From Edaphobacter paludis (GTDB lineage: Bacteria; Acidobacteriota; Terriglobia; Terriglobales; Acidobacteriaceae), in assembly GCF_039993895.1 (NCBI RefSeq), contig NZ_CP121194.1, positions 558,001-622,000 on the forward strand: a DNA stretch of 64,000 nt, read 5' to 3'. A model generated the notes under the pieces. That model was not told the DNA's origin. It saw only the letters and a list, made by a program, of their open reading frames with translations, and did no database searches. The position numbers and the translations under genes are program-made. Of the stretch, positions 6,417 to 14,451 are shown piece by piece; positions within the stretch are counted from its first letter, which is position 1, and each line of letters opens with the position of its first letter.

Positions 6417-7115
6417 TTATTGGGTGGTCTCGTATTGCAGTGCGAGGCGGGTTTTATGAGAGTGAGCGAGCTTATCGCGCAGAAATTGGAAGACGTCCTG
6501 CATGCCGGATCCGGTCTTGGCGGAGACCTCGAAGATCTGCATCCCAGGGCGCACACTCTCGATGTTTCGCCGAGCGGCGGCGAGATCGAACTCGGCAGGG
6601 CCGGCCATATCCATCTTGGTGATAATCGCGACGTCGGAGCTATTAAAAATAGTTGGATACTTTAGAGGCTTGTCTTCACCTTCCGTGGCGGAGAGCAGGA
6701 CGAAGCGGAGCTCTTCGCCAAGGTCATAGCTGGAGGGGCAGACCAGATTACCGACGTTCTCAATAAAGAGAAAATCGAGCGCGTCGAGCTGCCATCCTTC
6801 AAGCGCTCTTTCGATCATCTGTGCATCGAGATGGCAGATGGTTCCGGTCGTGATCTGGCGCACGTTAGGCGTCGCGCGCTTGAGGCGGGCGGCGTCGTTC
6901 TCCGTGGCAAGATCTCCGACCAGCGCAGCGACGCGGAAGTTGGCGGCGAGGGTGCCGAGAAGCTTTTCGAGGAACGCGGTTTTTCCCGAGCCGGGGCTTG
7001 AAACCAGGCTGATGACGCTGACGCCCGAAGCCTCGAAACGTTCTCGGAGTGCGTGGGCGAGAAGATCGTTCTGCTTCAGAACCTTCGCGCGTACTTCTAC
7101 GATGCGTGTGCTCAC
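6417..7115 (-). CDS. hypB: Hydrogenase nickel-incorporation GTPase HypB
   Basis: 232 residues. The P-loop is SSPGSGKTAFLEK near residue 40, and the G-domain metal site is kept in GTICHLDAQMI and ENVGNLVCPSSYDLGE (Cys, His, Cys). A His-rich nickel-storage N-terminus is absent. With HypA it delivers Ni to the hydrogenase large subunit at the expense of GTP. Its start overlaps the hypA stop by 4 nt, and it is the last gene of the hydrogenase transcription unit. Confidence 0.95.
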   Translation of the reverse strand: MSTRIVEVRAKVLKQNDLLAHALRERFEASGVSVISLVSSPGSGKTAFLEKLLGTLAANFRVAALVGDLATENDAARLKRATPNVRQITTGTICHLDAQMIERALEGWQLDALDFLFIENVGNLVCPSSYDLGEELRFVLLSATEGEDKPLKYPTIFNSSDVAIITKMDMAGPAEFDLAAARRNIESVRPGMQIFEVSAKTGSGMQDVFQFLRDKLAHSHKTRLALQYETTQ

Positions 7116-7459
7116 GCGGCCACCTCCAGAGAAACGACTTCGAGTTCACGTCCTGTGACGATGGTCTCGCTCGGTGTGTTGCATTCCGGACAGCAGAGTT
7201 GATAGAGCGAGGGGGGGGGCCGGTCTTCATGGCAAATGGCACAGTGGATGACAAGCGGAACGGTCTCAATATCGAGTCGCGAATCTTCGAGTCGCGTGCC
7301 CTCACAGGCGAGCTCCCAGGCGAAGAGGAGTGCGTCTCGGTCTACACCCGAGAAGACACCGATTTTGAGGTGCACGACCTCTATGTCATGGAGATCGCGC
7401 GCTTCAGATTGCTCGTCGATCTCGTCGATGATGCTGAGAACAATCGATAGCTCGTGCAT
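7112..7459 (-). CDS. hypA: Hydrogenase maturation nickel chaperone HypA
   Basis: 115 residues starting MHELSIV, so the N-terminal Met-His-Glu nickel site is kept. The zinc motif follows the CxxC...CPxC pattern (CAIC and CCPEC, about 14 residues apart). A run of about nine G on the plus strand at 7211-7219 lies between the two cysteine pairs and encodes prolines; such runs are prone to slippage, but the frame is intact here. It probably acts with HypB to load Ni. Confidence 0.92.
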   Translation of the reverse strand: MHELSIVLSIIDEIDEQSEARDLHDIEVVHLKIGVFSGVDRDALLFAWELACEGTRLEDSRLDIETVPLVIHCAICHEDRPPPSLYQLCCPECNTPSETIVTGRELEVVSLEVAA

Positions 7460-7497: not shown

Positions 7498-7602
7498 TTA
7501 CATTGTGCTGATTTTGATGTAGCGCTTGATGTCGGGCGCAACCATGATTGCCACTAGGATGAATGCCAGACTCAGTGTGCCAACGATGATTTTTCCTGTC
7601 AT
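7498..7602 (-). CDS. 34-residue hydrogenase-associated membrane peptide
   Basis: The ATG at 7602 has the strong ribosome-binding site AGAGGTG and overlaps the protease stop by 4 nt (ATGA), so translation is very likely despite the size. One hydrophobic helix (IIVGTLSLAFILVAIMVA) is followed by the basic motif APDIKRYIKI and ends STM. Short proteins with a PDIKRYxxI ending sit near actinobacterial group 1h hydrogenases; I recall them as DUF6893, but the number should be checked. I infer a membrane anchor or electron-transfer partner tag. Confidence 0.75.
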   Translation of the reverse strand: MTGKIIVGTLSLAFILVAIMVAPDIKRYIKISTM

Positions 7603-8150
7603 GATGTCACCTCTCTGTTACCCGTAACATGTGTATGCACCTGCATCGGAGGGTCTTTGCTTTCAAGGATTTTTCCGATCAACTCTTCGATCATGTTGGA
7701 TGCTTCTTCGACCGTGGCTTGCACTTGCGGTGATAGCCCCATGCGGCCTTCGAGTTCGTCGCCGAAGTCCCTGGGCTCGCAGCCGACGACAAGGATACTA
7801 GCGGCTATGGGGCCGAGCGAGGCGGCAAGATTTAAGACCCGCATGGGATCCATGCCATGAGGGTTCAAGTCCATGCCCGCTGCATCGGGGGCGCCGAGCC
7901 CCGTCAGATCCGGTTCAAGGACGAACAGAGTGCCGGGCACCTCCTTGCGGGGCAGCGCGTCGACGAGGATGACGGTGTGCCACGGGTCGAGCAATGTGTA
8001 AGCGAGGTCGAAGCCCCGGATGCCGAAGTCTTTCACCTGCACTTCGCTGGGAAGGGTCCGCTGCGAAAGCGAACGGGCAACCTCGACTCCGAATGCGTCG
8101 TCTCCGAGGAAGATATTGCCGATGCCGGCGATGAGAATCGTCCCGGTCAT
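7599..8150 (-). CDS. Hydrogenase maturation protease (HyaD/HycI family)
   Basis: 183 residues from the ATG at 8150, preceded by GAGGAAG. The family motif GIGNIFLGDDAFGVEVA supplies the Glu/Asp that bind nickel, and DFGIRGFDLAYTLL and VDALPRKEVPGTL complete the fold. The enzyme cuts the C-terminal extension from the large subunit after Ni insertion, at the DPCxxCxxH motif. The substrate extension is visible in the adjacent hhyL. Its start overlaps the preceding 116-aa gene by 4 nt. The longer open frame to 8540 is not supported. Confidence 0.92.
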   Translation of the reverse strand: MTGTILIAGIGNIFLGDDAFGVEVARSLSQRTLPSEVQVKDFGIRGFDLAYTLLDPWHTVILVDALPRKEVPGTLFVLEPDLTGLGAPDAAGMDLNPHGMDPMRVLNLAASLGPIAASILVVGCEPRDFGDELEGRMGLSPQVQATVEEASNMIEELIGKILESKDPPMQVHTHVTGNREVTS

Positions 8151-8497
8151 GTTGAGGCTTCCTCTCGATAGGGCTCGATCTCTTCGGTGCCAAAAAAGAA
8201 GCGGTGGCCAGGTTGGCGCATCATGCCGAACTCGCGTCCGGGGTCGTCGTCGAGCACGACGGCAAACTGGATTCGGTCTTCGAAGTCCTGCTCGATGGCC
8301 TCGATGATGGCAACCTTGCCGGTGAGAGCGAGGTCCATGATGTCCGCGGACTTTTGCGGCCAGATGCGGATGCGATCGCCGACGCGGAGATCGACGCTGC
8401 CTTCGGCGGTCCACACCCGCACGGACTCTGGCGCTGCTTTCTCCTCCGCGAAGGGATTCCACTCTGCTATGAAGCCATCTGGTGAGTCGGGATTCAT
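8147..8497 (-). CDS. Conserved-looking 116-aa hydrogenase-locus protein
   Basis: A soluble 116-residue protein with no signal peptide or cysteines. It contains a small beta-rich core (SVRVWTAEGSVDLRVGDRIRIWP) and ends with an acidic tail. I do not recognise the family with certainty. Its position, overlapping by 4 nt both the 313-aa protein upstream and the protease downstream, means it is cotranscribed and coupled with hydrogenase maturation genes. A role as a dedicated chaperone for this hydrogenase type is inference. Confidence 0.75.
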   Translation of the reverse strand: MNPDSPDGFIAEWNPFAEEKAAPESVRVWTAEGSVDLRVGDRIRIWPQKSADIMDLALTGKVAIIEAIEQDFEDRIQFAVVLDDDPGREFGMMRQPGHRFFFGTEEIEPYREEAST

Positions 8498-9435
8498 GAG
8501 GTGCCTCCGCGGACCTCGCGCATTGGACGGATGATGCCATGGGTTTTCAGCATCTCTTCGCCGGTCAGGGCTTCGGTGCGCTCGAGGATGCGGCGGGCGC
8601 GAGGATCGCCATTGCGCACCTCCTCCTTTTCGGCGTCGGTCAGGGTAAGGACGCGGAGGGTAAGCATCTCGTCCATCTCGGTGCCGTCAAAGAAGTCGCC
8701 GGCGCTGTCGGGCGATGTTTTGGGATAGTCGTACATGATGATGGGGGAGAGAAGCAGGATGGAACGGTCAGGCTCTTCGCCGGCAAGAACGGGAAAGACG
8801 CCGATGTTGGTGCAGGCCTTGGCATCGGCACTATAGAGATCGGGTGGTTCGAGGAGCGAGATAAACTCTCCGTCTGTCAGGCCGATCAGGAGGTGTGCGG
8901 AGACGAGCGACTGGGACAACGCCTCGTCCCGGTGTGCATCGGTGCCGCTCGAAAGCGGGCTCGCGTTTTCGAGTTCGAGATGCAGCTTGCAGATGCCACC
9001 AGGCATGCTTTGGGCGCTGATCGTAAGGCTTGCCGCGAGGTCTGAGGTAGGGGTGATGTGTAGATTCAGGGGTGCGTCGAGGATATCGCCAAGACTCAAT
9101 CCGCAGTGGTCGGACGTGCGTTCGATGGCTTCATCCCAATCGAGCGATGGGTCAGCGAGGGTCTTCAGATCGTCCGAAGTTATTCGTGGCTGAGGCAGAA
9201 GCTGGAGGAAGCTGACTTTGATGTCAATCGACGCGTTGTGGCCGGGAACCAGGAGACACTCCGAGACTAGGCGGAAGGGTTCCTCGGGGTGTTGGGCTTC
9301 GGCGTAGATGCGGGGATAGAGAGTGCCGAAGTTCCAGCGCTGTCGATTTTTGATAGCAGTGGGGCGGTAGGGATAAAGAATGTATCCCTCGTAGAGCACG
9401 GCGGCAGCGATCTTTTCTACCGAGGCGAAGTTCAT
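8494..9435 (-). CDS. Unknown 313-aa hydrogenase-locus protein
   Basis: The ATG at 9435 is preceded by GAGGAGGT, and the start overlaps the DUF6084 stop by 4 nt. The N-terminus reads VEKIAAAVLYEGYILYPYRPTAIKNR followed by RWNFGTLYPRIY. The protein is soluble and has few cysteines; the C-terminal third (RARRILERTEALTGEEMLKTHG) is helical. I recall similar proteins beside actinobacterial and acidobacterial group 1h hydrogenases but cannot name a characterised one. The open frame upstream to 9651 runs into DUF6084 and is not coding. Confidence 0.8.
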   Translation of the reverse strand: MNFASVEKIAAAVLYEGYILYPYRPTAIKNRQRWNFGTLYPRIYAEAQHPEEPFRLVSECLLVPGHNASIDIKVSFLQLLPQPRITSDDLKTLADPSLDWDEAIERTSDHCGLSLGDILDAPLNLHITPTSDLAASLTISAQSMPGGICKLHLELENASPLSSGTDAHRDEALSQSLVSAHLLIGLTDGEFISLLEPPDLYSADAKACTNIGVFPVLAGEEPDRSILLLSPIIMYDYPKTSPDSAGDFFDGTEMDEMLTLRVLTLTDAEKEEVRNGDPRARRILERTEALTGEEMLKTHGIIRPMREVRGGTS

Positions 9436-10097
9436 CTCTGGACCTCCTCGGGGATCTCCGCTGAAGCATCTGCGGCGAGGGCTCTGGCTATGGCTTGTTC
9501 CCAGGTGGGGAGCCCATGGCGAACCTTGTAGTTGTACAACTGCTCGAAGGTGTCGCGGCGAAGACAGAGCCACGCGGAGTTGGGGTAGTGCATCTCCATC
9601 ATCTCTTTCCAGACGGATACAGGAAGACGATAGCTGGCCTCGCGGTCCCATGGAACCTGTGAGATCTGCAGCGCTCCGTCCAGACCCTCGTAGAAGAGTG
9701 TGCCGCTGAACATGACGGCGACTGGTATATCACCTGAATCGAGTGCGTGGAAGTACTTGGTCGCCGCGACATTGAAATCGAAGGTACAGGGAAGCTCGAG
9801 ATTGACGAGCACTTCGCCGGTGAAGCGCGGGATCGCGACGCTGGTGTTCATCCAGAGTAGCGGCTTGACGGTGCGGGCCCAGCGCTCTGGCGTTCCGAAC
9901 AGATCGAGCAGCTTCTCTTGTTCGTTGGGGACGTAGCGGCGCTTGGCGGGCTCGATCTGGACCTGGCAGCGTAGGGTAATCGCGTGGATCGCTTCGGCGG
10001 CAGGGAAGTTGGTGATACGCAGCTTGAGTGCGATCAACGGCATAGCCGCGTGGGGCACCGCTTCAGCACCTTCGATCTCGAAATGGAGCTCAGGCAT
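9432..10097 (-). CDS. DUF6084 family hydrogenase-associated protein
   Basis: 221 residues, soluble. The opening LHFEIEGAEAVPHAAMPLIALKLRITN and the RRYVPNEQEKLLDLFGTPERW segment match what I remember of DUF6084, a family found almost only in group 1h hydrogenase loci. The predicted beta-rich N-terminal half suggests a binding rather than catalytic protein. It overlaps its neighbours on both sides (8 nt with DUF5947, 4 nt with the 313-aa gene). Function is unknown. Confidence 0.8.
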   Translation of the reverse strand: MPELHFEIEGAEAVPHAAMPLIALKLRITNFPAAEAIHAITLRCQVQIEPAKRRYVPNEQEKLLDLFGTPERWARTVKPLLWMNTSVAIPRFTGEVLVNLELPCTFDFNVAATKYFHALDSGDIPVAVMFSGTLFYEGLDGALQISQVPWDREASYRLPVSVWKEMMEMHYPNSAWLCLRRDTFEQLYNYKVRHGLPTWEQAIARALAADASAEIPEEVQR

Positions 10098-10773
10098 GGA
10101 TTGGCTCCATCTGCTGGTTCGCGGGAGTTTCTCTTATTTCAGTGCTGCGGGCTTTCAGGCTCGCGAAGAACTCGTGGATGTGCTTCCAGACATCCACGCC
10201 ACCGGAGAGACCACGCCAATGCATACGGATGAGGCCGACGAGGTGGAAACACTCGTCGATTGGCACAATGTAGTACTCATGGGCTGTGCCCACACGATTG
10301 ACGAGCAAGGTCTCGACATCGGGCTCCATCTTCTGGAGAGAGAGATGCTGGGCCGCGATTTCGGTCCAGGATTCCAGGCTCAGCAACGATTCAATGGCTC
10401 CTGCTGGACTGGGATACATGGCCATCATCCTGCCGCTTGAGGTGGCGTAGTAGAAAAAAGCCAGATTGATAGGAATCATGAGAGATTCCCATTGCAGATT
10501 TGGCATTTCGAAGTCGGTGAGAGCGCGGATGCGGCGGGGGATTCGCAGATAGTGGGCTCCAGGCTGGCCGCAGAAGAGTACGGCACAACCATCGCAGGAG
10601 CAGGCGATCTCGCGTTTACGGGGATCGAGTAGATGCTGATGCACGGGTGCGAGCTCGGCGCTGCAAAGCTCGCAGCGTTCCGCCCCATCAGAGATAGGGC
10701 GTCGGCGAGCGACTTGCCTCAGAAACGACGGGACCGGAGTCCGTTCCTGTTCGGCTTCGGGGAGTTCGTTCAT
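10090..10773 (-). CDS. DUF5947 family hydrogenase-associated zinc-finger-like protein
   Basis: 227 residues. Near residue 35 it has CELC, and 25 residues later CSCDGCAVLFCG, a likely zinc or Fe-S binding site. The conserved YLRIPRRIRAL and WESLMIPINLAFF motifs follow. I assign it to DUF5947 from memory of these motifs in group 1h hydrogenase operons. It could be a redox or assembly factor for the small subunit; that is inference. The GGGAG ribosome-binding site supports the start at 10773. Confidence 0.8.
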   Translation of the reverse strand: MNELPEAEQERTPVPSFLRQVARRRPISDGAERCELCSAELAPVHQHLLDPRKREIACSCDGCAVLFCGQPGAHYLRIPRRIRALTDFEMPNLQWESLMIPINLAFFYYATSSGRMMAMYPSPAGAIESLLSLESWTEIAAQHLSLQKMEPDVETLLVNRVGTAHEYYIVPIDECFHLVGLIRMHWRGLSGGVDVWKHIHEFFASLKARSTEIRETPANQQMEPIHA

Positions 10774-10788
10774 GCTGGGCTCCCGAGG

Positions 10789-10968
10789 CTAGGCAGGTGG
10801 CAGGTGGGGCATCTTGGGATTGATGGGGCCACGCTGGCATAAGTTGATGCCGGTGGCGTCCTTCGCGAGGCGGGTGGGCCGTTGGGCGAGCGGTCTGCCG
10901 CGGCTCTCACCCTTGCGAATTCCGACGGCGTGGAATGAGGTATCGGGCTGTGCGTCCTGTTTGGCCAT
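10789..10968 (-). CDS. Small 59-aa hydrogenase-locus protein
   Basis: The ATG at 10968 has a strong AAGGAGAA ribosome-binding site. The gene lies 11 nt after the NifU-like gene and 15 nt before the DUF5947 gene, so it is a coupled operon member. The product is basic and Pro-rich, with the segment DATGINLCQRGPINPKMPHL before a PPA end and a single Cys. I recall similar C-terminal GPIxPxMP motifs in small proteins of this operon type, but know no function. Confidence 0.75.
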   Translation of the reverse strand: MAKQDAQPDTSFHAVGIRKGESRGRPLAQRPTRLAKDATGINLCQRGPINPKMPHLPPA

Positions 10969-10979
10969 AACGGTTCTCC

Positions 10980-11561
10980 TTACTTGATGGTTACGAGTTG
11001 GGGTCCACTCTGCGCTTCGGCTGCGGCGTTCTCGGAGACGATTTCTACGATGTCGGGCGCGACCTCGAAGAGTGCATCTTCGACTGCGTTCTTCAGCGTA
11101 ATGGAGGAGCTTGGACAGCTGCCGCAGGTTCCGTGAAGGCGCAGGTGGACGATGCCATCTCGAACGCCGGTGAGTTCGACATCGCCGCCATGAGATTTGA
11201 GATAAGGACGAGCTTTTTCAATGCCACGTAGCACACGCGTTTCGATGTCATCCGGGTGGAGGTTGTGCAGCAGGAGCATGCTGGATACCAGATCATTCTG
11301 CAATGCCTGTCCGAGGGCATGTTCGCCCGCCGGGGTTTGCATGAGCGAGTCGATGAGACGCTGCAATCCCGCACCATGCAATTCAACGACCGACTGCACA
11401 AGGTCGAGCGCAGTGGCCCGGATCTCCGGATCACCTGCGCTTTGGAGGCGGGCTGCCAGCTTTTCCACTCGTTCCGTCTGCAGGCGAAACTCGCCACGCT
11501 GCGGAGGCGCGATGCTGCCGACGACTTCAGGTTGGACATCGGTTTGGGGTGCAGCGGCCAT
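10980..11561 (-). CDS. NifU C-terminal-domain Fe-S protein (HhyE-like position)
   Basis: 193 residues. The N-terminal half is helical. The C-terminal half (from about residue 110) is a NifU-like domain with the [19 protein letters not shown] motif, whose two Cys bind an Fe-S cluster. The start shares one nt with the hhyL stop (TAATG). In mycobacteria an Fe-S protein encoded next to the group 1h structural genes (HhyE) is, as I recall, required for hydrogenase function; this gene occupies the same place. It may carry electrons to the quinone pool or deliver a cluster. Confidence 0.88.
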
Positions 11562-13365
11562 TATTCATGCCCCGCTACGCCAAACATGGGAGAGTGGCGC
11601 GTTTCAAGGATTTTGCCGTCACCGAGATACATGTGGACGCCGCAGGGCAGGCACGGATCGAAGCTGCGAACCGTGCGCATGATGTCGATTCCCTTGAACT
11701 TGTCTGGGCCGTTTTCCTCGAAGAGCGGCGTGTTCTGGACCGCGTCTTCGTAAGGTCCGGGAGTTCCATACATATCGCGGGGGTTGGCATTCCAGGGAGT
11801 AGGTGGGTACGGATGATAGTTGGCGATCTTGCCCTCGCGAATGACAACGTGGTGCGAGAGAACGCCGCGAACTGCCTCGTGAAAGCCGCAGCCGATGGCC
11901 TCTTCCGGCACTTTGAACTCGCTCCAGGTGGCGGTGCGGCCGGCATTCAACTCGGCGAGAGCTTTTTCGACGAAATGCAACGCGGTGGCGGCGGCGTAAG
12001 CCTGGAAGTAGGTGCGGGCGCGGTCGCGTTCGAGGGTGTTTGACCACTTAGGGATGTGCCACTCGAACTCGGTCTCGGGCAGCAGAGCGGTCTTGGGGAG
12101 GTTGATTTTTACGCTGTGACCGGTGGCCTGGACGTAGCCGATGTCTACGAGGCCAGATAGCGCGGTCGACCAGAGACGTGCGATGGGTCCACCGCCGGTA
12201 TCGAGAGCAAGGTGGTCACCGGTGCGCTGATCGAGCCAGCGCGGCGACATGACCCAGGTGTAGTTGCCTTTGAAGTCGCGCTTCTGCGGACGAGGAATAG
12301 TGGTCTGGTTCCAGGGGTGGCGCTTATCGATCGGGTTGCCGAGCGGGTCTTGTGCAACGAAGGTCTCCTGGCCCTGCCAGTCATCGTAATAGGAACTGCC
12401 GAGGAGTATCCGGATGTTGAGATTGATGTCAACGAGAGAGTTCGTGACCAGCTCACCGTCGACGACCACGCCGGGAGTGACGAACATCTTGCGGCCCCAT
12501 TCGGCCATGTTCTTGTACTCGTAGTCGCAATAGTCGGGATCGTTGTACGAACCCCAGCAGCCGAGCAGGATGCGGCGACGGCCGACTTCTTCGTATCCCG
12601 GGAGCGCGTCATAGAGAAAAAGTCGAAGAGATCGTCGTGCAGCGGTACGACCTTCTTCACGAACTCGACGTACTTCATCAGCCGCACGAGATAGTCCGTG
12701 AAAAGTTGAATCGTGGCTACCGTGCCCACTCCACCGGGATAGAGCGTCGACGGGTGGACGTGCCGTCCTTCCATCAGGCAGAACATCTCGCGGGTGAGGC
12801 GGCTCATGGCGAGCGTCTCGCGGTAGAAGGTGCCGGTGAATGGATTGAGCGCGGTCATGATGTCGGAGATCATGCGATAACCGTGCTTGTCGGCGTTCCG
12901 ACAAGGCGTGTGCTGAGCCTTCTCCCAGACGTTGGGATTGGTCTCCTTGACCATCTGTTCGCAGAAGTCGACCCCGACCAGATTGTCCTGAAAGATGTTG
13001 TGATCGAACATGTACTCAGCCGCTTCGCCAAGGTTTACGATCCATTCGGCGAGCGCGGGAGGGCGGACGCCAAACGCCATGTTCTGCGCGTAGCAGGCGC
13101 ATGTGGCGTGATTGTCTCCGCAGATGCCGCAGATACGGCTGGTGATGAAGTGGGCATCGCGCGGGTCTTTGCCCTTCATGAAGATGCTGTAGCCGCGAAA
13201 GATGGACGAGGTGCTGTGACACTCGGCCACGGTTTTGTTGGCGAAGTCGATCTTGGTGAAGATGCCAAGACTGCCGACGATGCGGGTGATGGGATCCCAG
13301 TTCATCTCGACGAGATTGCGCTGCTTCTCCTCAAGTTCAGGGACGGTATCGGGATACGTTGCCAT
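11561..13365 (-). pseudogene. hhyL: Group 1h [NiFe]-hydrogenase large subunit, frameshifted
   Basis: If restored the product is about 600 aa. The ATG at 13365 (AGAGGAT ribosome-binding site) opens an N-terminal half containing the L1 motif RICGICGDNHATC. At plus-strand 12614-12617 (gaga) the coding strand has TC duplicated, and the frame moves to another that carries YDALPGYEEVG, the rest of the protein and the L2 motif [10 protein letters not shown] 23-residue extension after L2 is the expected protease substrate. Removing two bases restores an uninterrupted hydrogenase. As written, the first frame yields 406 aa with a nonsense tail and no second pair of nickel ligands. It could be a real 2-nt insertion, a population variant or an assembly error. 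Confidence 0.93.
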
Positions 13366-13389: not shown

Positions 13390-14451
13390 TTAGAAGGCGT
13401 TGGGCTGCTGCGGGCGATAGCCGGTGGTGAGCTCCGGGCGATTGTGGCGCCACTTCGGCTCTTTGTTGACCGTAGAATTAGTGATCCCGCGGAGCGCACG
13501 AATCATCCTTCCGTATCCGCTGACCAGCGTGGCTGAGAGCATCCCTCCGGGAGGTTCGTCCATAAAAGGCATGAACTTGTCGGGGAAGCCGGGCATCGTG
13601 CAGCCGATGCAGATGCCGCCGACATTGGGGCAGCCGCCGATACCGCGCATCCAGCCGCGTTTCGTGACATTGCAGTCGACGACTGGCCCCCAGCAGCCTA
13701 ATTTGACGAGGCATTTTGAGGAGCCGTATTCGGTGGCGAAGTCACCCTGCTCGTAGTAGGAGCCGCGATCGCAACCTTCGTGGACAGTCTTGCCGAAGAG
13801 CCAGGTCGGGCGAAGCTGCTTGTCGAGGGGAATCATCGGGGCGAGTCCGGCAACCTGGTAGAGCAGGTAGAGAACGGTCTCCATGAAATTGTCGGGTTGT
13901 ACCGGACAGCCAGGGACGTTGACGATCGGTAGACCTGCTTTGGAACGCCAGCCCCAGCCCAGGTAGTCCGCGAGTCCCATGGCTCCGGTTGGATTGCCGG
14001 CCATGGCATGAATACCGCCGTAGGTGGCGCAGGTGCCGGCGCCGATAACGGCCAGCGCCTTCGGGGCGAGGCGATCAATCCACTCGCAGGTCGTGATGGG
14101 CTGACCTGTGTCATGGTTTGTTCCCATGGCAGCCCAGTAGCCCTCTTTCTTAATCTTTTCGTTAGGGATGGAACCTTCGACGACAAGGACGAAGGGGTCG
14201 AGCAGACCCTTCTCGGCATCGTAGAAAAACTGCATGAATTCGTCGCCATTCTCGTACGCGAGTACCGGATTGTGGAGATGCACCGTCGGGAGCCCAGGAA
14301 TCGCGCCGAGGAGAACATCCTCGATGCTCGGCTGCTCGGCTGCTGTGACGGAGACGCTGTCACCGTCGCAACTGAGACCCGCGGTAATCCAAAGAATGTG
14401 AACATCGGATACGGGTGAAGGCCTGGTGATCTTGCTTACGGAGTCAGCCAT
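13390..14451 (-). CDS. hhyS: Group 1h [NiFe]-hydrogenase small subunit
   Basis: 353 residues, starting MADSVSKI with no Tat signal, as usual for the group 1h (actinobacterial-type) enzymes. LWITAGLSCDGDSVSV carries the first proximal-cluster Cys; the nearby Asp matches the type in which Asp replaces one Cys ligand, as known for the Ralstonia enzyme. GAGTCATYGGI, VPGCPVQP and the C-terminal CLVKLGCWGP and GGCPNVGGICIGCTMPGFPDKF supply the remaining ligands. With HhyL the family oxidises atmospheric H2 and feeds respiration. It lies 24 nt upstream of hhyL and is the first gene of its transcription unit. Confidence 0.95.
   Translation of the reverse strand: MADSVSKITRPSPVSDVHILWITAGLSCDGDSVSVTAAEQPSIEDVLLGAIPGLPTVHLHNPVLAYENGDEFMQFFYDAEKGLLDPFVLVVEGSIPNEKIKKEGYWAAMGTNHDTGQPITTCEWIDRLAPKALAVIGAGTCATYGGIHAMAGNPTGAMGLADYLGWGWRSKAGLPIVNVPGCPVQPDNFMETVLYLLYQVAGLAPMIPLDKQLRPTWLFGKTVHEGCDRGSYYEQGDFATEYGSSKCLVKLGCWGPVVDCNVTKRGWMRGIGGCPNVGGICIGCTMPGFPDKFMPFMDEPPGGMLSATLVSGYGRMIRALRGITNSTVNKEPKWRHNRPELTTGYRPQQPNAF

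Follow-up and report, generated by a model that had tools for sequence, protein, structure and literature searches.

We analysed a stretch of 64,000 nucleotides (nt) from Edaphobacter paludis (RefSeq assembly GCF_039993895.1, contig NZ_CP121194.1, positions 558,001 to 622,000), hereafter the window, which is part of a source genome (G000) of 4.04 Mb in one contig. On the minus strand the window contains, in this order, hhyS and hhyL, the genes for the small and large subunits of a group 1h hydrogenase, a NifU-like gene, a 59-amino-acid (aa) open reading frame (ORF; P59), genes for a DUF5947 protein, a DUF6084 protein, a 313-aa protein (X), a 116-aa protein (Y) and a maturation protease (M), a gene for a 34-aa membrane peptide, and hypA and hypB (Table 1). 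The successive spacings from the NifU-like gene to the 34-aa peptide are +11, +15, −8, −4, −4, −4 and −4 nt, followed by +38 nt to hypA. These coordinates and spacings bear out the tightly coupled block between the NifU-like gene and hypA that a preliminary description of the sequence had proposed; its ‘six genes’ are the six without known function, and the protease makes seven coupled ORFs. We find that the block is, with near certainty, dedicated to group 1h hydrogenases.

Table 1. Positions in the window of the coupled block and of its neighbours, with the evidence for each assignment
Feature	Coordinates	Strand	Evidence
P59, 59-aa hydrophilic ORF	10789..10968	−	Homologues, alignment, dN/dS
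DUF5947 protein	10090..10773	−	PF19372, E 8.2e-68, 228 bits (curated cut-off 25)
DUF6084 protein	9432..10097	−	PF19562, E 1.8e-89, 299.3 bits (cut-off 25)
X, 313-aa protein	8494..9435	−	blastp to PHG069 and homologues; corresponds to N-terminal part of PHG069
Y, 116-aa protein	8147..8497	−	SH3-like barrel in model of fused homologue
M, hydrogenase maturation protease (HycI/HybD superfamily)	7599..8150	−	PF01750, E 6.9e-12, 45.8 bits (cut-off 23); TIGR00072, E 2.9e-31
DUF6893, 34-aa single-pass membrane peptide, tail PDIKRYIKISTM at stop	7498..7602	−	PF21833, E 3.8e-7, 30.5 bits (cut-off 24.6)
NifU-domain protein (HhyE type), short form without C-terminal CxxC pairs	10980..11561	−	PF01106, E 6.2e-22
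hhyL, group 1h large subunit, two overlapping frames	11561..13365	−	Identity to HofG
hhyS, group 1h small subunit	13390..14451	−	77% identical to pHG1 small subunit
hypA, boundary gene	7112..7459	−	PF01155, E 6.1e-29
hypB, boundary gene	6417..7115	−	ORF list; homologues adjoin hypA in related loci

The DUF5947-like and DUF6084-like labels of the preliminary description hold, as both proteins score over the curated Pfam cut-offs, while the 59-, 313- and 116-aa proteins match no Pfam family at cut-off and no NCBIfam family. Measured against one Edaphobacter locus (L063), the ratio of nonsynonymous to synonymous substitution rates (dN/dS) is 0.05 for NifU, 0.06 for DUF5947, 0.05 for DUF6084, 0.11 for both X and Y, 0.13 for M, and 0.37 for the 59-aa ORF and likewise for the 34-aa ORF.

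Among 159 Acidobacteriota genomes, with group 1h defined by a large subunit at least 79% identical to HofG, DUF5947 is present in eight, exactly the eight with a group 1h large subunit; the remaining large-subunit matches listed are partial and at most 52% identical. DUF6084 occurs in nine genomes, the same eight and G051, and DUF6893 in six of the eight and in no other of the 159. G051 carries the remnant of a group 1h cluster (L060, L061), in which a TnpB-like ORF abuts a DUF6084 fragment and X, Y and M are kept; hhyL and DUF5947 were not found in this genome.

The same association is seen in 217 Actinobacteriota genomes, for which large-subunit matches were listed at E 1e-100 and those of at least 67% identity were counted as group 1h. 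The group 1h large subunit occurs in 24 of these genomes, and DUF5947 in 24, 22 of which belong to the group 1h set; the corresponding figures are 21 of 24 for DUF6084, 22 of 25 for X, 16 of 22 for DUF6893 and 10 of 14 for the 59-aa family, with one-sided Fisher probabilities, uncorrected for shared ancestry, that range from 1e-25 (DUF5947) to 3e-8 (59-aa family). G164, G360 and G387, the Actinobacteriota in which DUF5947, DUF6084 or X occurs but a complete group 1h large subunit does not, are cut by contig ends; of the two with DUF5947, G164 has its large subunit interrupted by the contig end, and in G360 DUF5947 itself touches it. No DUF5947, DUF6084, X, DUF6893 or P59 was found in the seven Actinobacteriota whose only large subunits at E 1e-100 are 38–44% identical, a group from which G387 was excluded because its DUF6084, X, P59 and DUF6893 stand at a contig end. 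DUF6893 without a group 1h large subunit is confined to decayed clusters (G321, G366), contig-cut genomes (G164, G360, G387) and G385, where DUF6893 is not confirmed by our own profile. In the decayed clusters, DUF6893 and the protease lie beside truncated hhyS pieces (L151, G321) or beside a fragment of the 59-aa family (L152, G366), and both clusters also contain a hypF-like ORF.

The preliminary description had called the block specific to the hydrogenase and had suggested dedicated factors for assembly or electron transfer in group 1h, and across the two samples its families were not frequent without hhySL; co-occurrence is near-exclusive in both phyla. One genome, G213, speaks against a strict linkage: it has hhySL, NifU and DUF6084, yet only about 330 nt at the DUF5947 position. 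G355, a group 1h genome without DUF5947, shows a partial large-subunit match followed by 3.2 kb without block genes. A possible exception of another kind is aurHIII, a protein of a polyketide (aurodox) cluster labelled DUF6084 (PMC9361827), which would place DUF6084 outside hydrogenase clusters if that label is right.

A profile scan of genome contigs with DUF5947 returned at least 543 relatives, of which the best 80, an uneven sample drawn largely from Acidobacteriota, were kept, and twelve families were mapped on these 80 loci by iterated profiles. HhyL is present in 72 loci, and 73 have HhyL or HhyS. In the eight loci that lack HhyL the contig ends on the side on which the gene would be expected from the relatives, and the seven with neither subunit are contig-cut. 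The other families are found at 79 (DUF6084), 78 (X), 75 (Y), 75 (M), 74 (NifU), 56 (DUF6893) and 32 (59-aa) loci. Because homologues of the two small ORFs recur at so many loci, we regard both as genes and not as chance frames. The same gene set accompanies group 1h in Acidobacteriota, Chloroflexota, Verrucomicrobiota, Planctomycetes, Proteobacteria and Actinobacteria. In seven loci of verrucomicrobial type (L096, L109, L111, L113, L118, L124, L125), DUF5947, DUF6084, X-Y and M lie together upstream of hhyS, with DUF6893 in five, and since the block stays together in this position, it behaves as a cassette. Among plasmid records, DUF5947 and X each have 12 significant matches, in the same seven genera and in the same numbers, and DUF6084 has 10, without the two Streptantibioticus records; the neighbourhoods viewed for five of the 12 records are hydrogenase clusters in all five. 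A streptomycete-type clade (L013, L159 and L160, of which L013 alone is named and the other two are assigned by gene order) does not conform to the set: X-Y stands ahead of hhyS, and DUF6084 and a clear DUF6893 are absent, and both are therefore dispensable or replaced there.

Proteins X, Y and M are connected by the frames that encode them. X shares an open frame with Y in 20 of the 80 loci and in each of the five plasmid loci examined, and Y shares one with M in 24 of the 80, including the actinobacterial L131 and L139; no locus among the 80 is listed with all three in one frame. ‘Fusion’ here denotes one open frame and not a demonstrated single polypeptide. Alternative fusions usually mark physical partners. 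As Y pairs with X or with M, X and Y are placed at the step that M performs, and on these frames the three proteins probably form one complex.

We modelled the fused X-Y relative L065 with AlphaFold2 from a 40-sequence alignment (mean predicted local distance difference test score, pLDDT, 78). The X part of the model is rich in beta strands. Foldseek places DrmA of the DISARM system first (E 2.5e-7 and 4.2e-7), the next matches being unrelated and at about 1e-3, and VIA aligns X to DrmA with Z 11.7 over 193 residues at 3.9 Å, the best entry other than DrmA reaching 8.4 and aligning to Y. In addition, the PADLOC profile of DrmA recognises 41 of 48 X proteins with E values no higher than 1e-3, the lowest being 2.8e-11; in the ten matches shown, the matched positions lie within 69–329 of the 1018 of the profile. 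The window X alone matches this profile weakly (E 0.015).

Several results limit this likeness. The Foldseek match has a low TM-score by query, 0.26–0.28, and a deviation of 23 Å across the whole alignment, the range aligned by VIA in DrmA runs from 148 to 1150 and thus past the N-terminal half, and a 48-member X profile matches no PDB chain at E 10, DrmA not being recovered. DrmA was also not found at E 5 with the 40-member X-Y profile, and no DrmA row appears in a tblastn search of plasmids with one X protein. We base the link to DrmA on the PADLOC profile and the local structure match. We rejected X as DrmA or a helicase in its own right, given its length of 313 aa, the absence of a helicase family in Pfam and the absence of RecA domains. 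We take X to be a putative stand-alone scaffold domain, neither helicase nor defence protein. The DrmA authors call its N-terminal half a structural chassis, and a preprint (PMC12458937) describes a jelly-roll and a helical domain that precede the DrmA helicase core.

Residues 346–433 of the X-Y model, in the Y part, are predicted to form an SH3-like barrel. In VIA the closest folds belong to PetP of cytochrome b6f (Z 8.4 and 8.1), followed by BAH, KOW and Tudor domains, and Foldseek returns nitrile hydratase beta chains; Y has no significant sequence match to PetP or to nitrile hydratase beta. As the SH3-like barrel is common, this fold says little on function.

The presumed substrate of M is the hhyL product. 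The two overlapping hhyL frames match HofG residues 6–253 and 249–599 with 79–81% identity, and the frameshift near 12613–12625, which went unmentioned in the preliminary description, reflects two extra nt relative to six of seven relatives; the remaining one does not align in this region. The strain either has a defective hydrogenase, or the frameshift is an assembly error. The hhyL product has a C-terminal tail of the same kind as HofG, and in PDB entry 5AA5 the HofG chain comprises 579 residues, positions 1–579 of a 603-residue gene product, ending at CGVH. Because this chain ends before the tail, tail processing is real in this enzyme group.

Group 1h small subunits typically carry no twin-arginine translocation signal and no membrane helix. 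The window HhyS has neither a twin-arginine motif nor a membrane helix, and among HhyS proteins from 69 loci, three have a twin-arginine-like string near the N-terminus and none has a strong hydrophobic segment. In plasmid records (L012, 4507–5562; L014; L015; L016), the group 1h small subunit is labelled ‘hydrogenase expression protein HypE’, apparently a misannotation. In L057 (16925–19901) and in 19 other loci (L052, L053, L056, L070, L071, L073, L078, L079, L082, L083, L086–L088, L090, L095, L098–L100, L105), hhyS is preceded by a second hhyS, and genes for a histidine kinase and a response regulator separate the two, a count that omits the fragmentary L064 as a 21st locus and includes L056 and L078, apparently the same contig. 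Loose motifs detect the kinase in 20 of the 20 and the regulator in 18, and reading L057 by eye, we see a PAS kinase and a LuxR-type regulator. In four of these genomes (G009, G084, G086, G155), only one close large subunit was found. The second hhyS, with its kinase and regulator, might be an H2 or redox sensor.

The DUF5947 gene is of the PHG067 type by gene order in the Cupriavidus necator plasmid pHG1. Forty-two aligned members share the motif C-x2-C-x7-H-x-H-x10-C-x-C-x2-C, in which the first Cys is conserved in at least 90% and the rest are invariant, and the protein very probably binds a metal, as zinc or as an iron–sulfur cluster. A scan of the 42 members found no Rieske or rubredoxin match at E 0.1 and a few single weak matches of zinc-finger type, and no significant relative was found in the PDB by sequence. 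PHG067/MSMEG_2717 has been proposed as an electron acceptor (PMC6883350, citing Schafer 2013). The preliminary description had stated that none of these proteins has a known function, which agrees with the literature excerpts and is qualified by this proposal.

The DUF6084 model (mean pLDDT 92) is beta-rich, in a beta-sandwich-like arrangement, with C-terminal helices. Many beta-sandwich and other proteins cluster at Z 6–8.2 in the fold comparison, and we read no function from the fold because these values are within the tool's range for common arrangements. DUF6084 has no significant sequence relative in the PDB, and profile comparison found no homology to X-Y or DUF5947. The relatives of P59 share a C-terminal motif like ARDSTGINPxxRxPIDPxMPxLPPA, and P59 is probably disordered; none of 33 members matches Pfam at E 0.1. 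Its presence in only 32 of the 80 loci counts against the explanation proposed below. We considered that P59 replaces the C-terminal CxxC extension of HhyE and dropped the idea, since both are present in L054, L068, L134, L137, L139 and L140.

The 34-aa membrane peptide noticed in the preliminary description is a DUF6893 member and has the strongest hydrophobic segment of the 13 proteins examined, with a hydropathy of 2.56; the next value, 1.92, lies inside the protease. Its tail is fixed (RY.....M): all 72 profile hits have R-Y at −8/−7 and a terminal M with the stop directly after, although the profile that picked the hits favours RY and M and two contigs are doubled. The position of the tail at the stop was not selected for by the profile. 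A longer form in Acidobacteriaceae has its hydrophobic segment further upstream and the same tail. In whole-genome searches, 12 of 13 hydrogenase genomes have exactly one DUF6893 match, 11 of which score over the Pfam cut-off, and 11 of the 12 matches are in the fetched hydrogenase locus or 5 nt outside it; the contig of the G167 match was not identified.

Read most simply, DUF6893 would tether the soluble enzyme to the membrane, with its tail as the docking site. We infer that the tail is on the cytoplasmic side because it is basic. PMC6883350 describes the Hhy enzyme of M. smegmatis as bound to the membrane and reports that no accompanying cytochrome b was found. Other observations pull the opposite way. 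Our own profile misses DUF6893 in 24 of the 80 loci; seven of these are contig-cut and the genomes of L099 and L138 have a Pfam match, which leaves 15, and the peptide is missing from a deep actinobacterial clade as well as from the streptomycete clade. G360 and G376 have extra copies on other contigs, and no other block gene was found near these copies in the parts of the contigs that were retrieved. The hydrogenase of this type in Cupriavidus has been described as a cytoplasmic enzyme (PMC4377017), even though pHG1 carries a DUF6893 ORF. This description lowered our estimate for the tether from an even balance to one tilted slightly against it. The gene tables in PLSDB of four plasmids, which are incomplete, do not list the peptide.

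We propose that a complex of X, Y and M would recognise nickel-loaded pre-HhyL and cut off the C-terminal tail of this precursor, Y acting as the link between the scaffold X and M. DUF5947, beside the NifU-like HhyE, would act on the small subunit, in iron–sulfur cluster delivery or as a relay, DUF6893 would anchor the otherwise soluble enzyme to the inner membrane via its fixed C-terminal tail, and DUF6084 and the 59-aa peptide may be helpers or structural partners. We infer these biochemical steps from the coupling, the co-occurrence, the fusions, the Cys/His motif and the membrane helix with its fixed tail. Taken as a whole (X-Y-M processing, DUF5947 beside HhyE, DUF6893 as anchor), this is the best explanation, and its chances of being right and of being wrong seem to us about equal. 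It must be set against the literature excerpts found, which hold no interaction, mutant or biochemical result for block genes except hhyE. A more far-reaching version, in which a finishing machinery found only with group 1h (DrmA-like scaffold, SH3-like adaptor, protease) is combined with a largely overlooked 34-aa tether that binds the finished enzyme, with -PDxxRYxKxRSM as its C-terminal signal, and replaces a missing membrane subunit, is unlikely to be correct in full; if it were true, a hydrogenase factor and a segment of an anti-phage helicase would have inherited their scaffold domain from a common ancestor.

The block could instead be an electron-transfer module, in which DUF5947, with HhyE, would accept electrons from HhyS and pass them to the quinone pool, DUF6084, X and Y would be subunits of a respiratory complex, and DUF6893 would be its membrane part. 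Such a role would suit the Cys/His set conserved in the 42 DUF5947 members and the strict linkage of DUF5947 to hhySL, and it accords with the acceptor proposal for PHG067/MSMEG_2717 and with the report that no cytochrome b was found in the hhy structural operon (PMC6883350). The frames point elsewhere, since X and Y share them with each other or with the protease and not with electron carriers; the absence of Rieske or rubredoxin matches among the 42 members, and of any haem or quinone protein family among nine proteins scanned, likewise makes electron transfer somewhat unlikely as the purpose of the block.

Mere packing of unrelated housekeeping or regulatory genes into one operon would account for the short overlaps, which are common in bacterial operons, but the same set accompanies group 1h over six phyla and is nearly always absent without the hydrogenase, and we consider packing extremely improbable. 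For the group 2a enzyme, HucM builds an oligomer or shell, and X, Y and DUF6084 could form one around HhySL, the frame-sharing with the protease then being mere gene packing. The beta-rich models of X and DUF6084 fit such a structural scaffold, as does the resemblance of X to a region of DrmA, the N-terminal half of which is called a structural chassis by its authors. A single frame for Y and M in 24 of the 80 loci would be odd for a stoichiometric shell subunit, and we judge this reading distinctly improbable.

Group 1h is among the high-affinity hydrogenases credited with atmospheric H2 consumption in soil (PMC8027828), and a 2019 paper named the route of its electrons into the respiratory chain as an ‘outstanding question’ (PMC6883350). 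The block supplies candidates at the level of single genes, namely a membrane-attachment peptide, three proteins for processing of the large subunit and a metal protein next to HhyE, and it suggests which genes may need joint transfer for making a group 1h enzyme in another host. The ORFs themselves are already known as unknowns in Cupriavidus, where PHG066–069 are given as ORFs of unknown function (PMC4377017); the fusions, the fixed tail of the peptide, the likeness of X to DrmA and the behaviour of the block as a cassette are not described in the literature excerpts found. Elsewhere in the window, positions 207–791 on the plus strand hold a repetitive ORF rich in lysine and alanine, histone H1-like by eye.

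The closest described counterpart of the locus is PHG064–070 on pHG1 of Cupriavidus necator H16, which has the same order of small subunit, large subunit, NifU, DUF5947, DUF6084, X-Y and protease, with a DUF6893 ORF after the protease as in the window. It differs in that X and Y are one 476-aa ORF in pHG1 and two ORFs in the window, and in that no 59-aa ORF was found by profile in pHG1, whereas the window has one. The hhy cluster of Mycobacterium (M. intracellulare plasmid) likewise has NifU/HhyE, DUF5947, DUF6084, X-Y and the protease; HhyE of Mycobacterium, described in PMC6883350, has a C-terminal extension with two CxxC pairs, whereas the window NifU is a short form. M is in the same superfamily as the proteases HycI, HybD and HyaD, with the difference that 24 of 80 relatives have a Y domain ahead of the protease in one frame. 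The SH3-like barrels of PetP and nitrile hydratase beta resemble the Y model in fold, a common fold and thus weak evidence. The N-terminal region of DISARM DrmA is a remote match to the X family by profile and by fold, but X is without the RecA helicase domains of DrmA and is located in a hydrogenase operon.

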